A stretch of DNA of 64,000 nucleotides from Methylomonas sp. UP202 (GCF_029910655.1 NZ_CP123897.1:1116001-1180000), one strand, 5' to 3'. Counted from the stretch's first letter, positions 16,556 through 28,024 are shown. Translations and numbers: made by a program. The notes: a model not told the origin generated them from the sequence alone.

Positions 16556-17065
16556 TTGTCTGCCGAAGAGTATTTGAGCGTCGGCCAAATTTCCGGCGTG
16601 TTTGGCATCAAAGGATGGGTAAAAGTTTTTTCTTATACCGATCCGCGAGAAAATATCTTGGCTTACTCGCCTTGGTGTCTTAGGAAGAACGATCAAATTC
16701 GCGAGTTTAAGGTCCTAGCCGGAAGACGCCAAGGCGCTGCCGTTGTGGCCGAACTCGAAGATTTGGATGATCGCGACGCGGCGATGGCGTTGATGGGGTC
16801 GGATATCCTGATACGTAGACAACAGTTGCCCGAGCCGGCGGATGGCGAGTATTACTGGACCGACTTAATCGGTCTGAGGGTCGTTAATCAGGCGGCTATG
16901 GAGTTGGGGGTGGTCGATCATTTGTTGGAGACCGGCGCTAATGACGTTGTGGTGGTTTCGGATGGGCAACAAGAACGCTTGATCCCGTTTCTGATGGGGC
17001 AAACAATCCTCAAGGTCGATACCGAAAAAGGCTGCATTTTGGTCGATTGGGACGCCGATTTTTGA
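16556..17065 (+). CDS. rimM: ribosome maturation factor RimM
   Basis: RimM binds S19 and helps 30S maturation. The N-terminal domain has [22 protein letters not shown]; the C-terminal PRC-barrel has [16 protein letters not shown] and [15 protein letters not shown]...VDWDADF. The start appears to be the TTG at 16556, 6 bp after the rpsP stop, since no ATG or GTG exists before the conserved GQISG; this gives 169 residues. A weak start here may set its level below the ribosomal proteins on the same transcript, as is known for rimM and trmD in E. coli. Confidence 0.93.
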
Positions 17066-17078
17066 CGGCTGTTGCGGT

Positions 17079-17822
17079 ATGCGCTTCGATGTGATCAGCA
17101 TTTTTCCGCGGATGGTCGCCGACGCTGCCGCATTTGGGGTTACCGGTCGGGCGATAGAGCGCGGATTGGTTGATCTTGCTGTTTGGAATCCTCGAGATTT
17201 TACTCAAGACCGACATAAAACGGTCGACGACAGGCCTTACGGTGGCGGTCCGGGCATGGTAATGAAATACCAGCCTCTACGCGACGCGGTTGCCTCGGCA
17301 AAGCTAGCCGGTTGCGCCGGAGGTGGCACTAAAGTCGTGTATTTGAGCCCGCAGGGGCGAGTGATTTCGCAAAATTTGTTGCATGAGGCCAGTCGATTCG
17401 AACAGTTGATATTGGTGGCCGGACGCTATGAAGGTGTCGATGAGCGATTTGTCGTTCAAGAGTGCGACGAGGAGTGGTCTATCGGCGATTACGTTATCAG
17501 TGGTGGAGAGCTTGCCGCGCTGATTGTTGTTGATGCGGTGACCCGCTTGCTTCCCGGAGTATTGGGGGATGATGAGTCGGCAAAGCAAGATTCTCATGTG
17601 GATGGCTTGTTGGATTGCCCCCACTATACGCGGCCGGAGCATGGCGAGTTCGGTGATGTGCCGGATGTGTTGCTTGGCGGAAATCATGCGGCGATCAAGC
17701 GCTGGCGTTTGAAACAAGCGCTGGGCCGCACGTGGATGCGGCGTCCGGAGCTACTCCGGAGTTTGAACTTGACGGCAGAGCAGGAAGCTTTGTTGAGTGA
17801 ATTTAGAAATGAAATTGTTTAA
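17079..17822 (+). CDS. trmD: tRNA (guanine37-N1)-methyltransferase
   Basis: TrmD methylates G37 of tRNAs reading CNN codons and prevents frameshifting; it has the trefoil-knot SPOUT fold. Signatures are [55 protein letters not shown] and the knot sequence [15 protein letters not shown], followed by the catalytic Asp region [19 protein letters not shown]. It has 247 residues, 13 bp after rimM and 12 bp before rplS. Confidence 0.97.
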
Positions 17823-17834
17823 TAGGGTGTGGTT

Positions 17835-18182
17835 ATGAGTAAAATTATTGAAGAGTTGGAAGCGGCTCAGCTTAAACAAAACGTGCCAGAATTCGGCCCA
17901 GGCGATACCGTCGTGGTGCAGGTTCGGGTTGTGGACGGCGAGCGGGAAAGATTGCAGGCTTTCGAAGGTATAGTTATCGCCAAACGAAATCGCGGCATGA
18001 ATTCAGCGTTCACCGTTAGAAAAATTTCCCACGGTGTCGGCGTCGAGCGAGTGTTCCAAACTCATAGCCCCGCCGTCAGCAGTATCGAAGTCAAACGCCG
18101 TGGCGATGTGCGTCGAGCTAAGCTGTATTATCTGCGCGACCTGACCGGTAAAGCCGCTCGTATTAAAGAACGACTGTCTTAA
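17835..18182 (+). CDS. rplS: 50S ribosomal protein L19
   Basis: L19 sits at the subunit interface of the 50S subunit. The protein starts [20 protein letters not shown] and has the conserved [39 protein letters not shown] and [25 protein letters not shown]. The ATG at 17835 gives 115 residues; the GTG two codons earlier is in frame but the family starts at MS. A strong terminator follows, closing the operon. Confidence 0.97.
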
Positions 18183-20533: not shown

Positions 20534-20953
20534 ATGAAAATCCACGTAGTCGATAATACCGGACAGATCCCGCCATTGTTGCTGATGTCCGAGGAAGACG
20601 TTTCGTTTTATAACGACGAAATACAGGCTTTGAATGCCGCCGAGGCCCAGCAGCCCAGCTTGATTTTACTGAGCTTCTCGTTGCGGGGCGATGAAACTCC
20701 GGACTATATCGGCTTGTTGTTGAATGCGAGTCCTGCCAGCAAGATCGTGGTGATCGGCGACGAGATCGGCGAGGACCGCATCTTGAATTGTCTGCTTGCC
20801 GGCAGTCGAGGCTACCAAAACAGCGGTCCGTTGAGCGGCTATCTGGCGAAAATGATTCAGGTTGTTGCCGACGGCGAGGCCTGGGTGAGCCGAAGAATGG
20901 TCGGTCGTTTGCTGGACGTCATCAGTCAGAATAATCTGGTGCTTAGCGTTTAA
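20534..20953 (+). CDS. response-regulator receiver-like protein without phosphoacceptor
   Basis: Predicted 139 residues with the beta/alpha pattern of a two-component receiver domain: IHVVDN at strand 1, SLILLSFSLRG at strand 3, KIVVIGD at strand 4, and a C-terminal helix region (LAKMIQVVADGEAWVSRRMVGRLL) like that which joins receiver and HTH domains in NarL-type regulators. The strand-3 position where the phosphorylated Asp normally sits reads Ser-Phe (LLSFSLRG), and no acidic pair is seen after strand 1. There is no DNA-binding domain. It looks like a degenerate stand-alone receiver; partner unknown. Confidence 0.6.
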   Translation: MKIHVVDNTGQIPPLLLMSEEDVSFYNDEIQALNAAEAQQPSLILLSFSLRGDETPDYIGLLLNASPASKIVVIGDEIGEDRILNCLLAGSRGYQNSGPLSGYLAKMIQVVADGEAWVSRRMVGRLLDVISQNNLVLSV

Positions 20954-21001: not shown

Positions 21002-23176
21002 TTAAAAATGCAGAGCGGCTTCGAAGTAGAAGGTTTGAGCCGAAATCGGTAAGTTGTAGGGATAACTAGCGATGGCCGGTTCCTTGCCCTGACTGTCGAA
21101 CAGGTTGCGTACCGACGCGGTCAAATCGAGCGATCCCATCAGTTTTTTGGCGTTTAACGTCAGGTCCACGGTTTGGTAATCCTTCAAAACCCGGTTATCG
21201 CCGATATCGCTAAGCCTATGTCCGACCCAATTGACTTGGGTCTGAATTTGCCATTTGGGATGAAAGTTCCAGGACAATGCGGTGTAAACATGGTGTTCTG
21301 GGACGTTGCTGACTCGCCGTTGGGTGGCTCGGTCGACCGCGTATTGCCAAGCGTAATTGCCACGCAAATTCCAGTCGTCGTAGAATTTCCAATCCCATTC
21401 GAATTCGCTGCCCAACCCATCTTGACCGGGATTGTTGACCTCGGACAGCGTGGCGCCCTGATTGGTTAATTTGCCGCCGATTAAGTCGTTGATTTCGTAG
21501 TAATAGACATTCAATGTGGTTCGCAGGCTCTTCCAGGGGCGGTAATCGAAAGCCAACTCGGTGGTTTCTATCGTCTCCGGACTCAACGAGGCATTGCCGA
21601 CGAACAGCGGATTATTTTTCTGATATTGCTCGACGAAGCTAGGTGCGCGGTAGGCCTGACCGTACAACAATTTGCCGGTTAGATCCTCGTTAATATCCCA
21701 AACCAACGCGGCTCTTGGGTTCAAAGTACCGCCGAAATCCGAATATTCGTCGTAACGCAAGCCGGCCGTCAATTGCCAATTCTTGGAGATCTGCCATTCG
21801 TCCTGCAACGCGACCGACCAGATCGATCGATGGGTGTCGTTCATGAAGGCGTAGGGCGTGCCGGTGACGTCGGTCAGGTCGCCGTTGACGACTAATTGCT
21901 GGCCGTCGATGACGCCGATGCCGTAATTGCGCAGTTCGCTGACATTCAATTCCTCGTAACGGAAGCCGGTGATCAATCGGATCAGGTGGTTTTCGAACCC
22001 TTTGTAAATACTGGTCAGTTCGGTGCTCGGGACGGTATTTTTGATACCGGGGACGAAACGCATGCCATTTGGAAACGACACAAAGTTGACTAAGGTGGCG
22101 GGGTTGAGATTGCCGTTGGCATCCACGGCTAGGTTACCGTTCCCATCGATAGGTAAAACCGTGCCTACTGGAAAGTTACGGCTATTTCCGTTCAAATCGG
22201 TGTGCAGAAAACTGGTGTGAAATTGCAGTTCCCAATTTTCCAGGTCGTTCTCGGTCGAGTAACGGACGTCACCTAAATAATGGGCGCCGTCCAGCGTGCC
22301 GCTATTATCCAACGCGCCGCTGGCGCCGGCCGGGAAGCCAACGGATTGGTTGTAAGCCCAAAAGTTCAAATCCCAGTGTTGGCGCTGTAAATTCAGATGA
22401 GCGTTCCAGCGCTCGCCGGCAGTCTGCATAGCGCCGGGTGCCTGAGACGCGTGCGTGTTCAGCGCGTTATCCAATGCGGTTTGAGCATCGGCCGCCACGA
22501 TGCGATCCGGATTGATCCCACTGTGGCTATATTGCAGGCTACCGGCAACATCCCATTCGCCGTAATGGCCGCCGTGCTGCGCCCAGGTGCTGGTGCGGTC
22601 GGCGTTACCGCCGCGCGCGCCTAGCGTGGTACCGTTGAGGTCGCCGGCTTTTTTCGTGACAATATTGATGACGCCGGCGAAGGCGTCGGCGCCGTACAAG
22701 GCCGAGCCCGGCCCGCGAATGACTTCGACACGCTGAATGTTTTCGACCGGTACGATCATCCCCGCCATGTGCGAGCCCTGATAAGGAATCGAAAACCGGG
22801 TGCCGTTCAACATCAGCAAGACTTCCGAGTTGGTTTGATTACGCATGCCGCGCATCGTATAGGTGTAATCGTTGGTGACCGGTTGAATACTGACGTGCAT
22901 GCCGGGCACGGTTTCTAGCACTTCGTGTAGCTCGGTGGCGCCCATCGCGCTGATTTGGTCGGCGGTAATCACAGTCGTGACCGCGGCGGATTGCGATACC
23001 GATTTGGCGGTCCCCGAGGCGATGCTGACCGAAATATTGGCCAGCTCGGCCGGTGACAGTTCGAGCAAGTCGGTCATGCTCTGGTCTTGACCCTGGGCTG
23101 GTTGACCGAGGCCGCATAGCAACACGGCCGGCACTACGCACCGTTTGCCGAAGACGTTGGGTTTGGGCTGACTCAT
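21002..23176 (-). CDS. TonB-dependent outer membrane receptor
   Basis: Predicted 724-residue outer membrane beta-barrel with a plug. A signal-peptide-like segment (residues 13-30) is followed by DLLELSPAELANISVSIAS, the plug (VTTVITADQISAMGATELHEVLETVPG, ... VENIQRVEVIRGPGSALYGADAFAGVINIVTKKA), alternating strands, and a terminal Phe (YFEAALHF). It is third in an operon after a YfiR-like protein and a GGDEF/EAL protein; its ATG overlaps the stop of the latter (ATGA). The ligand is not evident; iron chelate, cobalamin or a small organic molecule are options. Genes of this type are often found with DUF4154 and GGDEF partners, which suggests coupled uptake and signalling. Confidence 0.9.
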   Translation of the reverse strand: MSQPKPNVFGKRCVVPAVLLCGLGQPAQGQDQSMTDLLELSPAELANISVSIASGTAKSVSQSAAVTTVITADQISAMGATELHEVLETVPGMHVSIQPVTNDYTYTMRGMRNQTNSEVLLMLNGTRFSIPYQGSHMAGMIVPVENIQRVEVIRGPGSALYGADAFAGVINIVTKKAGDLNGTTLGARGGNADRTSTWAQHGGHYGEWDVAGSLQYSHSGINPDRIVAADAQTALDNALNTHASQAPGAMQTAGERWNAHLNLQRQHWDLNFWAYNQSVGFPAGASGALDNSGTLDGAHYLGDVRYSTENDLENWELQFHTSFLHTDLNGNSRNFPVGTVLPIDGNGNLAVDANGNLNPATLVNFVSFPNGMRFVPGIKNTVPSTELTSIYKGFENHLIRLITGFRYEELNVSELRNYGIGVIDGQQLVVNGDLTDVTGTPYAFMNDTHRSIWSVALQDEWQISKNWQLTAGLRYDEYSDFGGTLNPRAALVWDINEDLTGKLLYGQAYRAPSFVEQYQKNNPLFVGNASLSPETIETTELAFDYRPWKSLRTTLNVYYYEINDLIGGKLTNQGATLSEVNNPGQDGLGSEFEWDWKFYDDWNLRGNYAWQYAVDRATQRRVSNVPEHHVYTALSWNFHPKWQIQTQVNWVGHRLSDIGDNRVLKDYQTVDLTLNAKKLMGSLDLTASVRNLFDSQGKEPAIASYPYNLPISAQTFYFEAALHF

Positions 23177-25533
23177 AGTTCTTCCAAGGGTACCGGTTTA
23201 GCAATGCCGTAACCCTGGGCGTAATTGACGCCTAAGGTTTTCAACAACTCGAAAATATCGCGGTTTTCGACGAATTCGGCGATGGTTTTCTTGCTCATCA
23301 CATGAGCGACTTCATTGATCGATTTGACCATGGTCAAATCGACCCGGTCTTCCAAAATATCCTTGACGAATAGGCCGTCGATTTTCAAAAAGTCCACAGG
23401 AAGGTTTTTTAGATATGCAAATGAAGACAGGCCGCTGCCGAAGTCGTCCAGCGAAAACAGGCAACCCTTGGTACGCAAGGAATTAATGAACTGGCGGGCG
23501 TAGGACAAATTGCTGATGGCGGCGGTTTCAGTAATTTCAAAGCATATCTTATGCGTCGGAATATGCCATTTTTGAAACTGCTCGTCGATAAAGGTCAGCA
23601 TCGTTTCGTCGGACATCGACAGGCCGGACAGGTTGACCGAGCACATTTCCAGGCGTTCCAGCAGGTTCGGAGTGGTTGCCAAATGCTCAAACAAACGGGA
23701 AATGACCCATCGGTCCAGCGGTGGAGCAATGTTGTAACGCTCGGCGGCCGGCAGGAACGCGCCGGGGGGAATGACTTTGCCCTGTTCGTCGATATAGCGG
23801 ATCAGCGTTTCGAAATGCAGCCCTTCGTCGTTCGAGGCAATCGGCACGATTAACTGACCGTAAAGTTGGAAACGGTTTTGTTCTATCCCCATCCGGATTT
23901 TTTCGACCCATTGCATTTCGCCTTGTCGCAACGTCAATTCTTCGTCGTCGGGGCTGAAGACGTGGACGCGGTTCCGTCCTTTTTCCTTGGCGGCGTAGCA
24001 GGCGGCGTCGGCTTCCTTGAGTATGTCGACCGCATTGCCGCTGGTCAGATTGATCGGAGCGATACCGACACTGACGCCGATATTAAAGCTACGATTTTCC
24101 CAGGCAAACTGAAAGTCGCAAATGATGTTGCGCAGTTTCTCGCAGGTCGAGAAGGCTTGCTCGACCGAACAATGCGACATCAAAATGCCGAACTCGTCGC
24201 CGCCCAGTCGCGCCAAAATGTCGGTCTTACGGACCTGGTGGCGCAGGACCTCGCCCAATTGGCGCAGCAGTTCGTCGCCCGCCAAATGACCGCAGGTATC
24301 GTTGACGATCTTGAATTGGTCCAAATCCAGGTAACAGAGTACGTGCTCGCTCTCGTCGATTTCGGCTTGAGACACCAAACTCTGGATGTGAATATCGAAT
24401 TGGCGCCGGTTGACCAGACCGGTCAGTTCGTCGTGGCTGGCCTGATAGGCGATTTTTTCCGACAGCCGGCGGGTTTCGGTGATGTCCTCGCAGACCAGTA
24501 ACAAGCGCTGGAAGTTGGACTCGTCGGTGACCAGACGCGCGGTTTCCCTGACCCAAATCACGTTGCCGTTGCGGCAAATTTTGCGGCTTTCCTGGCGATG
24601 AATCAGTTCCGGGTGGTGGCGGCAAGTCTCGAAAAACTGTTCGAAACCGGCGGCATCGTCCGGATGCGAGAAGTTGCTGATCGCGCAGCCCTGTAATTCT
24701 TCGACGCCCAAGCCCAATTGCTTCGCGCCGAAGCGGTTGACCGATACGATGCGGCCTTGCATGTCCAGATTGAAGACCATGGTCGGATTGTTGTCGTAGA
24801 GCGCCTGGTAGTTGTTTTTGACCGCGATTAAGGCTTTGTTTTGGGTTTCTACGGTGTCGAGCATGTCGTTGAAGGCATCGACCAGAATGCCCATTTCGTC
24901 GCTGCTGTGCTTTTCGGCTCGTAGCGAATAATCGTGATCTTGGCTGACTCTCTGCGCGGTTTTGGCGAGCTGGGCGACCGGCAGCGCGACTCGATTCAAC
25001 AGTGGGACAGTCAGCAAAAAGGTGATGAACAACGCGACGAAGAGAACCGCAATGATCAAGCTGACGAATTTCAGTTCTCGCCAAATCGCCGCACTCAAGT
25101 CCGAGGCCAGATACACTGCCCCGATTTCTTCGCTGTCAACCACCATCGCCTGGTATACATACAGCATCAAATTGTCGTAATGGGTATGCAGACCGTAGGC
25201 AACGTCCGGGCAGGGTAGGGCCTGATTGTCCAGTGAGGTAAACAGATGACCTTTCTTGACGTAAACGCAAGCGCTACGCAAGTCCGGAAAACTGTTCAAC
25301 GAAATCAGGTTTTCCTTGGCGACGCCGGCGTCGTCGAACATCACCGCGGCCACGCTGCGGTTGGCGATCAGACTGGCGACGGCCTGCAGATCGTCTTGAG
25401 CCTTGCGCTTGACGTCGGCGGCATTGATCGTGACGAGAATGACCAGTGCCAGCAACATCGAAAATAGGGCGGAGGTCACCGCGATTGTCAGCAGCTTCGT
25501 TTTAATGGAGAGGGCGGTAAACCATTTATTCAC
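23173..25533 (-). CDS. membrane sensor with PAS, GGDEF and EAL domains
   Basis: Predicted 786-residue c-di-GMP enzyme. Order: membrane helix (about residues 12-36), periplasmic domain (to about 155), second helix (about 156-180), HAMP (VALPVAQLAKTAQRVSQ...), PAS (about 245-355), GGDEF, EAL. The GGDEF motif is intact (ARLGGDEFGIL) with an RxxD inhibition site five residues before it (RKTD). The EAL domain keeps its signature as ETL (FETLIR), NLS, FEITETA, SLDDFGSGLSS, the Lys in DFLKIDG, and AEFVEN. Both activities are thus possible. The GTG start overlaps the end of the yfiR-like gene by eight bases. By analogy with YfiR-YfiN, the YfiR-like periplasmic protein may restrain it. Confidence 0.9.
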   Translation of the reverse strand: MNKWFTALSIKTKLLTIAVTSALFSMLLALVILVTINAADVKRKAQDDLQAVASLIANRSVAAVMFDDAGVAKENLISLNSFPDLRSACVYVKKGHLFTSLDNQALPCPDVAYGLHTHYDNLMLYVYQAMVVDSEEIGAVYLASDLSAAIWRELKFVSLIIAVLFVALFITFLLTVPLLNRVALPVAQLAKTAQRVSQDHDYSLRAEKHSSDEMGILVDAFNDMLDTVETQNKALIAVKNNYQALYDNNPTMVFNLDMQGRIVSVNRFGAKQLGLGVEELQGCAISNFSHPDDAAGFEQFFETCRHHPELIHRQESRKICRNGNVIWVRETARLVTDESNFQRLLLVCEDITETRRLSEKIAYQASHDELTGLVNRRQFDIHIQSLVSQAEIDESEHVLCYLDLDQFKIVNDTCGHLAGDELLRQLGEVLRHQVRKTDILARLGGDEFGILMSHCSVEQAFSTCEKLRNIICDFQFAWENRSFNIGVSVGIAPINLTSGNAVDILKEADAACYAAKEKGRNRVHVFSPDDEELTLRQGEMQWVEKIRMGIEQNRFQLYGQLIVPIASNDEGLHFETLIRYIDEQGKVIPPGAFLPAAERYNIAPPLDRWVISRLFEHLATTPNLLERLEMCSVNLSGLSMSDETMLTFIDEQFQKWHIPTHKICFEITETAAISNLSYARQFINSLRTKGCLFSLDDFGSGLSSFAYLKNLPVDFLKIDGLFVKDILEDRVDLTMVKSINEVAHVMSKKTIAEFVENRDIFELLKTLGVNYAQGYGIAKPVPLEEL

Positions 25534-26107
25534 GGCCGCCTCCTTCCACCAATGTGGCGACTTCGATCAGTTTAGCGCTGATCGATAGTCCGCTTTGCTT
25601 CAAAGCCTTTAAGTTGATATGCAGGCGCACTTTTTCATCGTCGAGCACGAAACCTATCATGCCGCCGGATTCGGCGAAGAAGGGCTGGCTACTGACTGTC
25701 AGCGTTTTACCGAGGTTGCCGACCAGCAAGACGCCGGTCAGATTGATGTCGATGCGTTGTTCGGTCTTTTCGGCGTACAGAATCTGGCAATCCTGCGCCT
25801 GTTTTAGGGAATCGAGGTGGCGCAAACGGATAGGTTTGTCGGCGACCGTTTTGGTCTCCAGCGTGTCGAGCAGATTGCCGAACGGGTTGTCGCCAATCAA
25901 GCAAATGTTGAACGACGGCCCAGGGTTGTTTGGCCAAGTGATGAATTTGGTGAAATTGTAAAGGTAAGCGGCCTTGATTTTGTATTCCAGATTCGGTTCG
26001 TCGGCGTGCGCTGTACTTAACACCCAGCCACAGACGAGCGCTGATTTGGCGTAAAACGCTGCACGCTGCAATGCAACATTGCAGTGGGACGAAAAGATCG
26101 GAAACAA
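25526..26107 (-). CDS. YfiR-like periplasmic protein (DUF4154)
   Basis: Predicted 193 residues with an N-terminal signal sequence ending near AHADEP, then the DUF4154 pattern: YKIKAAYLYNFTKFITWPN, ICLIGDNPFG, CQILYAE, GVLLVGN, and the C-terminal GGMIGFVLDDEKVRLHINLKAL...GLSISAKLIEVA. In Pseudomonas YfiR is a periplasmic repressor of the diguanylate cyclase YfiN. Here the two genes overlap (eight bases), supporting the same pairing; the third partner is a TonB receptor instead of the OmpA-like YfiB. The start is taken as TTG at 26107 because no ATG exists before the signal peptide; a later TTG inside the leader is possible. Confidence 0.85.
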   Translation of the reverse strand: MFPIFSSHCNVALQRAAFYAKSALVCGWVLSTAHADEPNLEYKIKAAYLYNFTKFITWPNNPGPSFNICLIGDNPFGNLLDTLETKTVADKPIRLRHLDSLKQAQDCQILYAEKTEQRIDINLTGVLLVGNLGKTLTVSSQPFFAESGGMIGFVLDDEKVRLHINLKALKQSGLSISAKLIEVATLVEGGGRE

Positions 26108-26154: not shown

Positions 26155-27459
26155 CTAAGGGTTGCTGAAAAAAACCTCCAGTGCGCCGACCATGTAGGCG
26201 TGGTCGGCGACGCCGGCACTTTCCCTGGCGCTGTGCATCGCCCACATCGGCGAGCCGACATCGACGCTACGTATACCCAGCTTGGCGGAGGTGATCGGAC
26301 CTATCGTGCTGCCGCAGGGCAGATCGCCGCGATGCGCGTACTTTTGAAAGGGCACGCCGGCCTGTTGGCAGAACTGGGCGAAAATCGCCTCGGATACGCA
26401 TTCGCTGGCGTAGCGGTGATTGACGTTGATCTTAATCACCGGTCCGTGATTGACCAGGATTTTATGGCCCGGCTCGTAGGCGGCCGGAAAATTGGGCTGG
26501 TAGGCGTGCGCCATGTCGGCGCTGACCAGAAAACTTTGCGCCAGCGCGCGCGGATAATTGTCCGACCGATCGCCGCATGCCCCGGCAATTCGAGACAGAA
26601 CGTCGGCCAGGAAGCTGCCGGCCGCGCCCTTGTTGCTTTCGCTGCCGACTTCTTCGTGGTCGAAAAAGGCGCACACCCGCGTGGCCGCCACGATGTGTTC
26701 CCGGCAATTCAGCAGGGCGGTCAGGCCGGCGTGGCAGGACGCCAAATTGTCGAGTTGGCTGTCGGCGATGAATTGTCGATCCGCGCCCCAGAACGCACCT
26801 TTTTGGCTGTCGTGGACGTTGAGCTCCCAGCTTAACATTTGGTCCGCCGTCAGGCCGGAAGCCGATTCCAGTAGGCCGTAAAACACGTCGTTTGCCGGGC
26901 TATCGCCCGGCAGATTGGCCAGCAGCAGCGGCAGCTCCGTTTGTTTATTCAGTTTGAGGCCATCCTCGTTGACGGCGCGGTTCATATGGATGGCCAAGTT
27001 CGGCAGACGCAACAGCGGCTCGGCAAATCGGACCAGCGTCGTGGCCACGCTACCATCGCCGTCGCGGTAAGCGATGCGTCCGGCCAGACTTAAATCGCGG
27101 TCGGCGAAAGTGGCTAAGATCGGCCCGCCATAAACTTCGACGGCAATGCGTACGAATCGATCGCTGTCGACGACCGGTCGTGGCTTTACCCGCAAACCCG
27201 GAGAATCGGTATGGGCGCCAAGGATCTTGAATCCGGCTTCGGCCGGCGCGGCGGCGCCGACGATGAACGCAACGATGGACGAAGCGTCTCGAATCACATA
27301 ATATCGGCCGCCAAGGCTTAACGGCCAAACTGCGCTTTCCTCCAGTTTTTGGAAACCGTGCGACAGCAGGCGCTGTTCTATGGTGGCAGCCGCGTGCCAG
27401 GGGCTGGGACTGGCGTCGATGAAATCCAGTAAATCTTGAGCGAGTTGCGGCGAGGTCAT
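26155..27459 (-). CDS. apeB: M18 family aminopeptidase
   Basis: Cytoplasmic zinc aminopeptidase of the M18 family (aspartyl aminopeptidase/ApeB). Metal-binding and catalytic regions are [13 protein letters not shown] (near residue 75), [18 protein letters not shown] (near 245), [13 protein letters not shown] and CGSTIGPI; the C-terminal [16 protein letters not shown] supplies the last His ligand. The ATG at 27459 overlaps the msrB stop (ATGA) and gives 434 residues; the frame is open farther upstream but that part overlaps msrB. Likely co-transcribed with msrB, and perhaps with the yfiR-like gene 47 bp downstream. Confidence 0.92.
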
Positions 27460-27848
27460 GATTTTTCCAGATCCAACGCAACCGAGTTGATGCAATAACG
27501 CTGACCGGTCGGTTGCGGACCGTCCGGGAATACATGGCCGAGGTGGGCACCGCATGAGCGACAGGTGACTTCGATGCGACGCATGCCGTGACTGGTATCG
27601 AGCGACTGCTCCAGACTTTCGCCGGCGATGGGAGCCCAGAAGCTGGGCCAGCCGCAGCCGGAGTGGAATTTTTGATCGGACGAAAACAAGGGTTCGCCGC
27701 AACACACGCAACGATAGACGCCAGCCTCCTCGCAATCGGTATACTTGCCGGTGAACGGCGGTTCGGTACCTTTTTCTCGGCAGACGTGGTATTGCTCGGG
27801 GCTGAGTTTTTCGCGCCAGATTTGTTCGCTATCGTCTTGGTCGGCCAT
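27456..27848 (-). CDS. msrB: peptide-methionine (R)-S-oxide reductase
   Basis: MsrB reduces the R-epimer of methionine sulfoxide in proteins. The start [20 protein letters not shown] leads into [20 protein letters not shown]; zinc ligands are the CxxC pairs in [10 protein letters not shown] and [13 protein letters not shown]; the catalytic Cys is in [11 protein letters not shown]. The ATG at 27848 gives 130 residues, near the 137 of E. coli; the longer open frame upstream lacks homology. The stop overlaps the apeB start. Confidence 0.94.
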
Positions 27849-28024
27849 ATCGTTATTCCGGAAATTTGCTGGGATGTCGCATTGTACCCAGACTTGATCC
27901 AAGGCCAAAGTGTGTCGCGCCCACGAATACCCACCGCGAGTGCGCGAATGTAACAATCTTCTATAGTTACGGACAATTCGGGTGAGGTCCGGATTCGAGG
28001 AAGGGTAGATTTTGGTTGCGTATG

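Follow-up and report, generated by a model that had tools for sequence, protein, structure and literature searches.

The closest described relatives of the locus studied here are the YfiBNR (DgcN-YfiR-YfiB) systems of Pseudomonas aeruginosa and Escherichia coli, together with AwsXRO; like our locus, they have a periplasmic YfiR, a CHASE8-HAMP-GGDEF enzyme, a YfiR pocket and an AAVxF motif. In P. aeruginosa, activation comes about when the partner in the outer membrane captures YfiR, and the YfiR-binding motif of YfiN is AAVVF (PMC3375315). The pocket of YfiR receives residue F57 of YfiB, which is located just ahead of the OmpA domain; all of the activating yfiB alleles were changed within residues 35-55 (PMC3375315, PMC4887326, PMC4655355). 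Malone et al. (2012) described the YfiR/YfiN cores as widespread and modular, often without YfiB and with either GGDEF-EAL or histidine kinase outputs, and they proposed direct sensing by YfiR where YfiB is missing; the term TonB has no occurrence in the text of that paper (PMC3375315).

The first-pass annotation of the present locus had considered the ligand and the logic of such gene sets to be undescribed. This is correct insofar as we found no paper in the open-access literature that links YfiR, YfiN, DUF4154, CHASE8 or a diguanylate cyclase to TonB, but modules without YfiB had been reported in 2012 and NCBIfam already had curated families for a YfiR-like protein, a TonB receptor and a YfiR-associated kinase (TOL_0243, TOL_0244 and HK_near_YfiR_like; NF053591, NF053590 and NF053592), so the receptor link has not gone wholly unnoticed. 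The names of these models give no mechanism or motif. In the FecA-FecR-FecI transducers, the periplasmic tip of a receptor reports ligand occupancy via a partner. Unlike these, the receptor described below has neither an STN domain nor an anti-sigma/sigma pair; its partner would be YfiR and its output c-di-GMP.

The trio and its surroundings

The window, by which we mean the whole 64,000-nucleotide stretch of the Methylomonas sp. UP202 genome that was analysed (NZ_CP123897.1:1116001-1180000), carries on its minus strand the gene order YfiR-like protein, CHASE8-HAMP-PAS-GGDEF-EAL enzyme, TonB-dependent receptor (TBDR):

25526-26107, minus strand: YfiR-like periplasmic repressor (DUF4154/PF13689; 140.8 bits, E 4e-41), 193 aa, first gene
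23173-25533, minus strand: predicted membrane c-di-GMP enzyme, TM-CHASE8 (periplasmic)-TM-HAMP-PAS-GGDEF-EAL by Pfam domains, 786 aa
21002-23176, minus strand: TBDR with plug and barrel (PF07715, PF00593) and no STN domain, 724 aa

As the first-pass annotation had it, the first two reading frames overlap by 8 bases (25526-25533) and the last two by 4 (23173-23176, ATGA), the latter overlap being retained in 46 of about 67 orthologous loci; the coordinates hold as well, all three genes being on the minus strand. The order is that of E. coli yfiR, dgcN and yfiB (YfiR, cyclase, outer-membrane protein), where yfiR and dgcN also overlap. The window differs in that its outer-membrane component is a TBDR and not the OmpA-like lipoprotein YfiB, as had been noticed earlier: both receptor domains are recognised, and Pfam returned no OmpA-like match among the three proteins. 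Moreover, the window enzyme has additional PAS and EAL domains, and its YfiR has no second disulfide. Relative to the modules without YfiB of Malone et al., the slot of YfiB is here filled by an outer-membrane receptor with a motif at its tip.

The YfiR-like protein is 99% identical to that of Methylomonas koyamae R-45383. Its structure as modelled by AlphaFold resembles that determined for YfiR (E 8e-9), and its profile recovers YfiR from the PDB (E 1e-11), although the narrow NCBIfam YfiR equivalog is not reached (33.8 bits against a cut-off of 85). The conserved C69 and C107 correspond to C71/C110 of PAO1 YfiR, which are a redox-sensitive pair; sequence and alignment reveal no cysteines at the sites of the structural disulfide C145-C152. 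The YfiB-binding pocket of PAO1 YfiR consists of L166, I169, V176, P178 and L181 (PMC4887326), and the aligned positions of the window protein are L, L, I, A and I, so that a hydrophobic pocket is kept.

Three segments of the enzyme are of particular relevance:

25336-25350, minus strand: AAVMF, residues 62-66, the equivalent of the AAVVF motif of YfiN
24190-24231, minus strand: GGDEF active site with its RxxD inhibition site
23797-23811, minus strand: ETLIR, residues 575-579, the EAL signature

Among 68 orthologues, the two alanines and the phenylalanine of AAVMF are conserved at 100%, 97% and 99%, while GGDEF with the R and D of the inhibition site, and the E, L and R of the EAL signature, are all at 100%; the further EAL catalytic residues N, E, D, K and Q, downstream in the same domain, are at 99-100%. 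The earlier claim that both active sites and the inhibition site are intact is thus confirmed, and since cyclase and phosphodiesterase residues are conserved at 99-100%, both predicted activities appear to be under selection. Like its two companions, the enzyme matches the NCBIfam families mentioned above, all three below the curated cut-offs: residues 9-229 align with HK_near_YfiR_like along the full model, whereas the output is GGDEF-EAL and not a kinase. The DgcN equivalog is not reached either (214 bits against 325).

The best NCBIfam model for the receptor is TOL_0244 (157.2 bits, cut-off 645), and the structural model of the protein resembles the BtuB and Cir folds (E 1e-37 to 1e-35, 16-18% identity). 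We attempted to assign a ligand by receptor family, but heme, siderophore and B12 types figured beside TOL_0244 among the best models, all of them far under their cut-offs, and the identity to BtuB and Cir is low; we therefore make no ligand call. The plug begins at residue 61, and Pfam gave no STN match in the protein.

Upstream of the trio there are two further genes on the same strand:

26155-27735, minus strand: M18 aminopeptidase (PF02127), ending 48 bases upstream of the YfiR-like gene
27456-27956, minus strand: MsrB-like (methionine sulfoxide reductase) frame upstream of the M18 gene, recognised by eye from the translation

In 57 of 60 loci the M18 gene precedes the trio in the same orientation, so that part of the synteny is a matter of vertical inheritance; for the MsrB-like frame, such a position and strand recur in 56 named loci. 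Together (26155-27956) the two are kept across the Methylococcales. The unit of the trio may reach upstream, and M18 may be co-transcribed with it. On the other side, between an lpxA-like gene and the receptor, there is a short NarL-like regulator piece (20534-20953; 139 aa, weak matches), which is retained in 15 Methylomonas-type loci. The genes rimM-trmD-rplS (16556-18182) are some 2.8 kb from the trio in Methylomonas. Both the window module and E. coli yfiRNB have rplS nearby, in E. coli in convergent orientation; we considered a shared synteny via rplS-trmD-rimM, but none of the loci examined that are not Methylomonas-like has such a neighbour, and we regard the resemblance as a coincidence.

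A family of YfiR modules with receptors

Scanning genomes with an alignment of YfiR, we obtained 80 loci, nearly all of them from Methylococcales, a bias of this named set that results from seeding the scan with the closer YfiR alignment. The order YfiR, CHASE8-GGDEF-EAL, TBDR is present in 66 of the 80, and most of the remainder are truncated where a contig ends or have their frames split. Even a methane-oxidising endosymbiont of a snail retains the trio (L278).

The genome of origin (a 5.5 Mb contig) has 8 YfiR-like genes, 54 TBDR plugs and 8 CHASE8 proteins. A TBDR lies within 3.5 kb of seven of the eight YfiR genes (P about 5e-8) and a CHASE8 protein beside seven (P about 1e-13), so that an adjacency by chance is excluded. 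The outputs of these modules are diverse:

window module: GGDEF-EAL output
L039: hybrid kinase and REC-GGDEF
L040:4672-9738, minus strand: a 1,688-residue CHASE8-HAMP-HisKA-HATPase-REC3-Hpt-GGDEF-EAL protein beside YfiR and receptor
L041: PAS-kinase-REC
L042: plain kinase
L043: receptor and YfiR only
L044: kinase-REC, a YfiR-CHASE8 pair with no receptor nearby
L045: PAS-kinase-REC-Hpt with a CarboxypepD_reg-type receptor

Module L044 indicates that a receptor is not always required. Proteins resembling the 1,688-residue one of L040 occur in several genera.

The same association was found on a larger scale. Across 61 genomes of the family, with 96 evaluable YfiR genes, a TBDR is located within 3.6 kb of 84 and a CHASE8 protein within that distance of 89; in a sample of the phylum that excluded this genome, the figures were 30 and 29 of 34 YfiR genes. 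The recurrence of such gene sets is consequently stronger than had first been claimed, and the proposed check on the co-occurrence of DUF4154, GGDEF/EAL and TonB receptors reveals a near-universal adjacency of YfiR, CHASE8 and TBDR, though the outputs vary (GGDEF-EAL, histidine kinase or both) and a direct GGDEF output is rare outside the family (2/29). The phylum sample also contains a single 864-residue reading frame (L217:5042-7636, minus strand) composed of YfiR-like, coiled coil, TM, HisKA, HATPase and REC segments, in which YfiR is joined to a kinase in place of CHASE8.

The N-box of YfiR-linked receptors

In the window receptor, the stretch that separates the signal peptide from the plug contains a segment that we call the N-box, and which was evaluated with profile and PSSM tests. 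It runs directly into the presumed TonB box:

23027-23071, minus strand: N-box, residues 36-50 (D36-V50), DLLELSPAELANISV
23018-23038, minus strand: inferred TonB box NISVSIA, residues 47-53

The latter was placed by register with BtuB (offset 41; query residue 62 = BtuB chain residue 21), whose TonB box we take to be residues 6-12, and it overlaps the end of the N-box. The N-box consensus is DLxxLSxEELxNIxV or, in the fuller form common to YfiR-linked receptors, [DE]D[LF]xx[LM]S[PLI]xEL[AL]N[IV]xV. The receptor residues preceding it are poorly conserved (mean 0.37 versus 0.73), while its leucine L45 is present in 100% of the window orthologues and a leucine in 98% of 181 linked receptors. The match of the receptor to its NCBIfam model extends from the N-box onward. 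We found no description of the motif in the open-access literature.

In the genome of origin, a profile trained without this genome detects the N-box (at least 12 bits) in 6 of 7 YfiR-linked receptors and in only 1 of 47 unlinked ones (Fisher 1.9e-6). A receptor with a clear N-box and without YfiR nearby is present in this genome at position 4869136 (L178). With a profile built from receptors that are not of the window type, 70 of the 71 receptors that are of this type score above the 1% level of the background; training in the reverse direction recovers 64 of 105. In a tree of the 54 receptors of this genome, the window TBDR clusters (100/100) with two paralogues that are unlinked and have low N-box scores, four other linked receptors form a separate clade, and one linked receptor falls among siderophore-type receptors; linked receptors with an N-box thus occupy at least three lineages.

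The 61 whole genomes contain 96 strong N-box matches. Of these, 92 fall in frames as long as those of receptors, and 86 have a YfiR gene no more than 7.5 kb away, but as many of these matches are training sequences or their relatives, only the rarity of unlinked matches is informative. Ten of the 96 are away from YfiR, some on other contigs, which counts against a role in docking YfiR, and no strong match was found in the YfiR-less genomes of the set (12 of the 61 scanned). Among 3,111 reading frames of the loci that are not receptors, the two top N-box scores belong to barrels without a plug, situated directly upstream of YfiR:

L105:8397-9449, plus strand: 350-residue barrel with N-box, weak Phenol_MetA_deg (outer-membrane barrel) match
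L117:8031-9095, plus strand: barrel with N-box, of the same description

Neither locus has a receptor, the barrel standing in its stead beside YfiR, and the N-box is therefore separable from the TonB box as such.

A few other loci deviate from the usual pattern. The L045 receptor (L045:6635-9670, plus strand), of the CarboxypepD_reg (OAR) type and beside YfiR and a CHASE8 kinase, has no N-box, implying either a different coupling or none. Loci L073, L130 and L086 have at least two tandem TonB receptors per YfiR operon, several with N-boxes, which suggests several ligands per sensor. Finally, we compared the N-box with the linker of YfiB (FTPEQVAAM in E. coli, LSAEQIAVL in P. aeruginosa); position and pattern are alike, but the scores were within background in most of the tests and we treat a homology as a hint only. 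A search for relatives of YfiB in the class returned OmpA-type proteins in general and was uninformative.

A model for signalling and its alternatives

The receptor with its N-box holds the place of YfiB in both gene order and topology. On the strength of such sequence comparisons, we consider it probable that the trio is a transmembrane signalling module of the YfiBNR type, in which the TBDR would replace YfiB and, by docking YfiR at the N-box, switch the enzyme. The steps that we infer for it (YfiR binding, N-box docking, dependence on TonB, the sign and a c-di-GMP output) would be the following. At rest, the YfiR-like protein would be bound to CHASE8, with its conserved hydrophobic surface at the C-terminus and the AAVxF motif as the contacts, and would thereby fix one activity state of the enzyme. 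The N-box, at the periplasmic tip of the receptor, would serve as the docking peptide for YfiR; as it runs into the TonB box, we propose that ligand binding and TonB engagement alter its exposure. YfiR would then either be sequestered at the outer membrane or leave it, and this would switch the enzyme. By analogy with YfiB, ligand-dependent capture of YfiR with derepression of the cyclase is the likelier sign, although with an intact EAL domain the net change of c-di-GMP could go either way. The first-pass annotation had already suggested that ligand uptake or TonB energisation frees the cyclase from the YfiR-like protein. The receptor as a substitute for YfiB is well supported by adjacency, the YfiR pocket, AAVxF, the YfiR-kinase fusion and the tracking of YfiR by the N-box, whereas the freeing by ligand or TonB is a step that we infer; the role of the receptor in uptake is assumed.

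The sign could also be the opposite, with an unliganded receptor that holds YfiR by its N-box until TonB-driven transport dislodges it and the enzyme is repressed, in which case c-di-GMP (or its degradation) would report ligand scarcity. The overlap of N-box (36-50) and inferred TonB box (47-53), which could let TonB compete with YfiR docking, and the fully conserved EAL domain are both compatible with this, but it runs counter to the activation by YfiR capture in P. aeruginosa (PMC3375315) and seems to us somewhat unlikely. Alternatively, YfiR itself might be the sensor, of redox state or of a small molecule, co-inherited with a receptor for the same nutrient and without any physical signalling between them. 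The conserved cysteine pair C69/C107, matching the redox-sensitive C71/C110, the MsrB-like gene as a conserved neighbour, the receptorless module L044 and the 2012 proposal of direct sensing (PMC3375315) all speak for such a sensor; nevertheless, we judge this unlikely, as it leaves unexplained why the N-box tracks YfiR across unrelated receptor lineages and even onto barrels without a plug.

Those same observations bear on the N-box being a mere lineage trait of some TBDRs, perhaps an extended TonB box or an export feature, whose tie to YfiR reflects an ancient hitch-hiking within operons. Four linked receptors of the genome do form a single clade, and TBDR, YfiR and CHASE8 do travel jointly as operons, yet the linked receptors that bear the N-box belong to at least three lineages, the helix part of the window receptor's N-box is missing from its closest paralogues without a YfiR link, and two barrels with neither plug nor TonB box bear it beside YfiR; we find this explanation quite unlikely. 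Least of all would we expect a plain co-regulated operon, in which the enzyme controls a pathway that depends on a ligand brought in by the receptor. While the 4-base overlap indicates coupled translation, receptors are tied alike to kinases and other outputs, and neither the N-box nor the YfiR-kinase fusion would be accounted for, making this reading very improbable.

What is new here is the conserved N-box on YfiR-linked receptors and the predicted role of a TBDR as the outer-membrane part of YfiBNR-type signalling. A broader generalisation, which we regard as slightly less likely than not, is that the YfiR-CHASE8 family as a whole usually receives its input at the outer membrane from TBDRs, with the N-box as a transferable YfiR-docking peptide set against the TonB box; energised transport would then be read as a c-di-GMP or phosphorelay signal, in a TonB-linked class besides the sigma/anti-sigma one and of which YfiBNR may be a variant.

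The nature of the input to YfiR/YfiN modules without YfiB has been a standing question since 2012. If the receptor is this input, signalling by c-di-GMP and by kinases would, in many bacteria, be coupled to particular ligands taken up at the outer membrane, and a motif of 15 residues would predict which receptors signal. The near-invariant leucine of the N-box makes the coupling testable by a single residue, and as many as seven such pathways may operate in parallel in one methanotroph.
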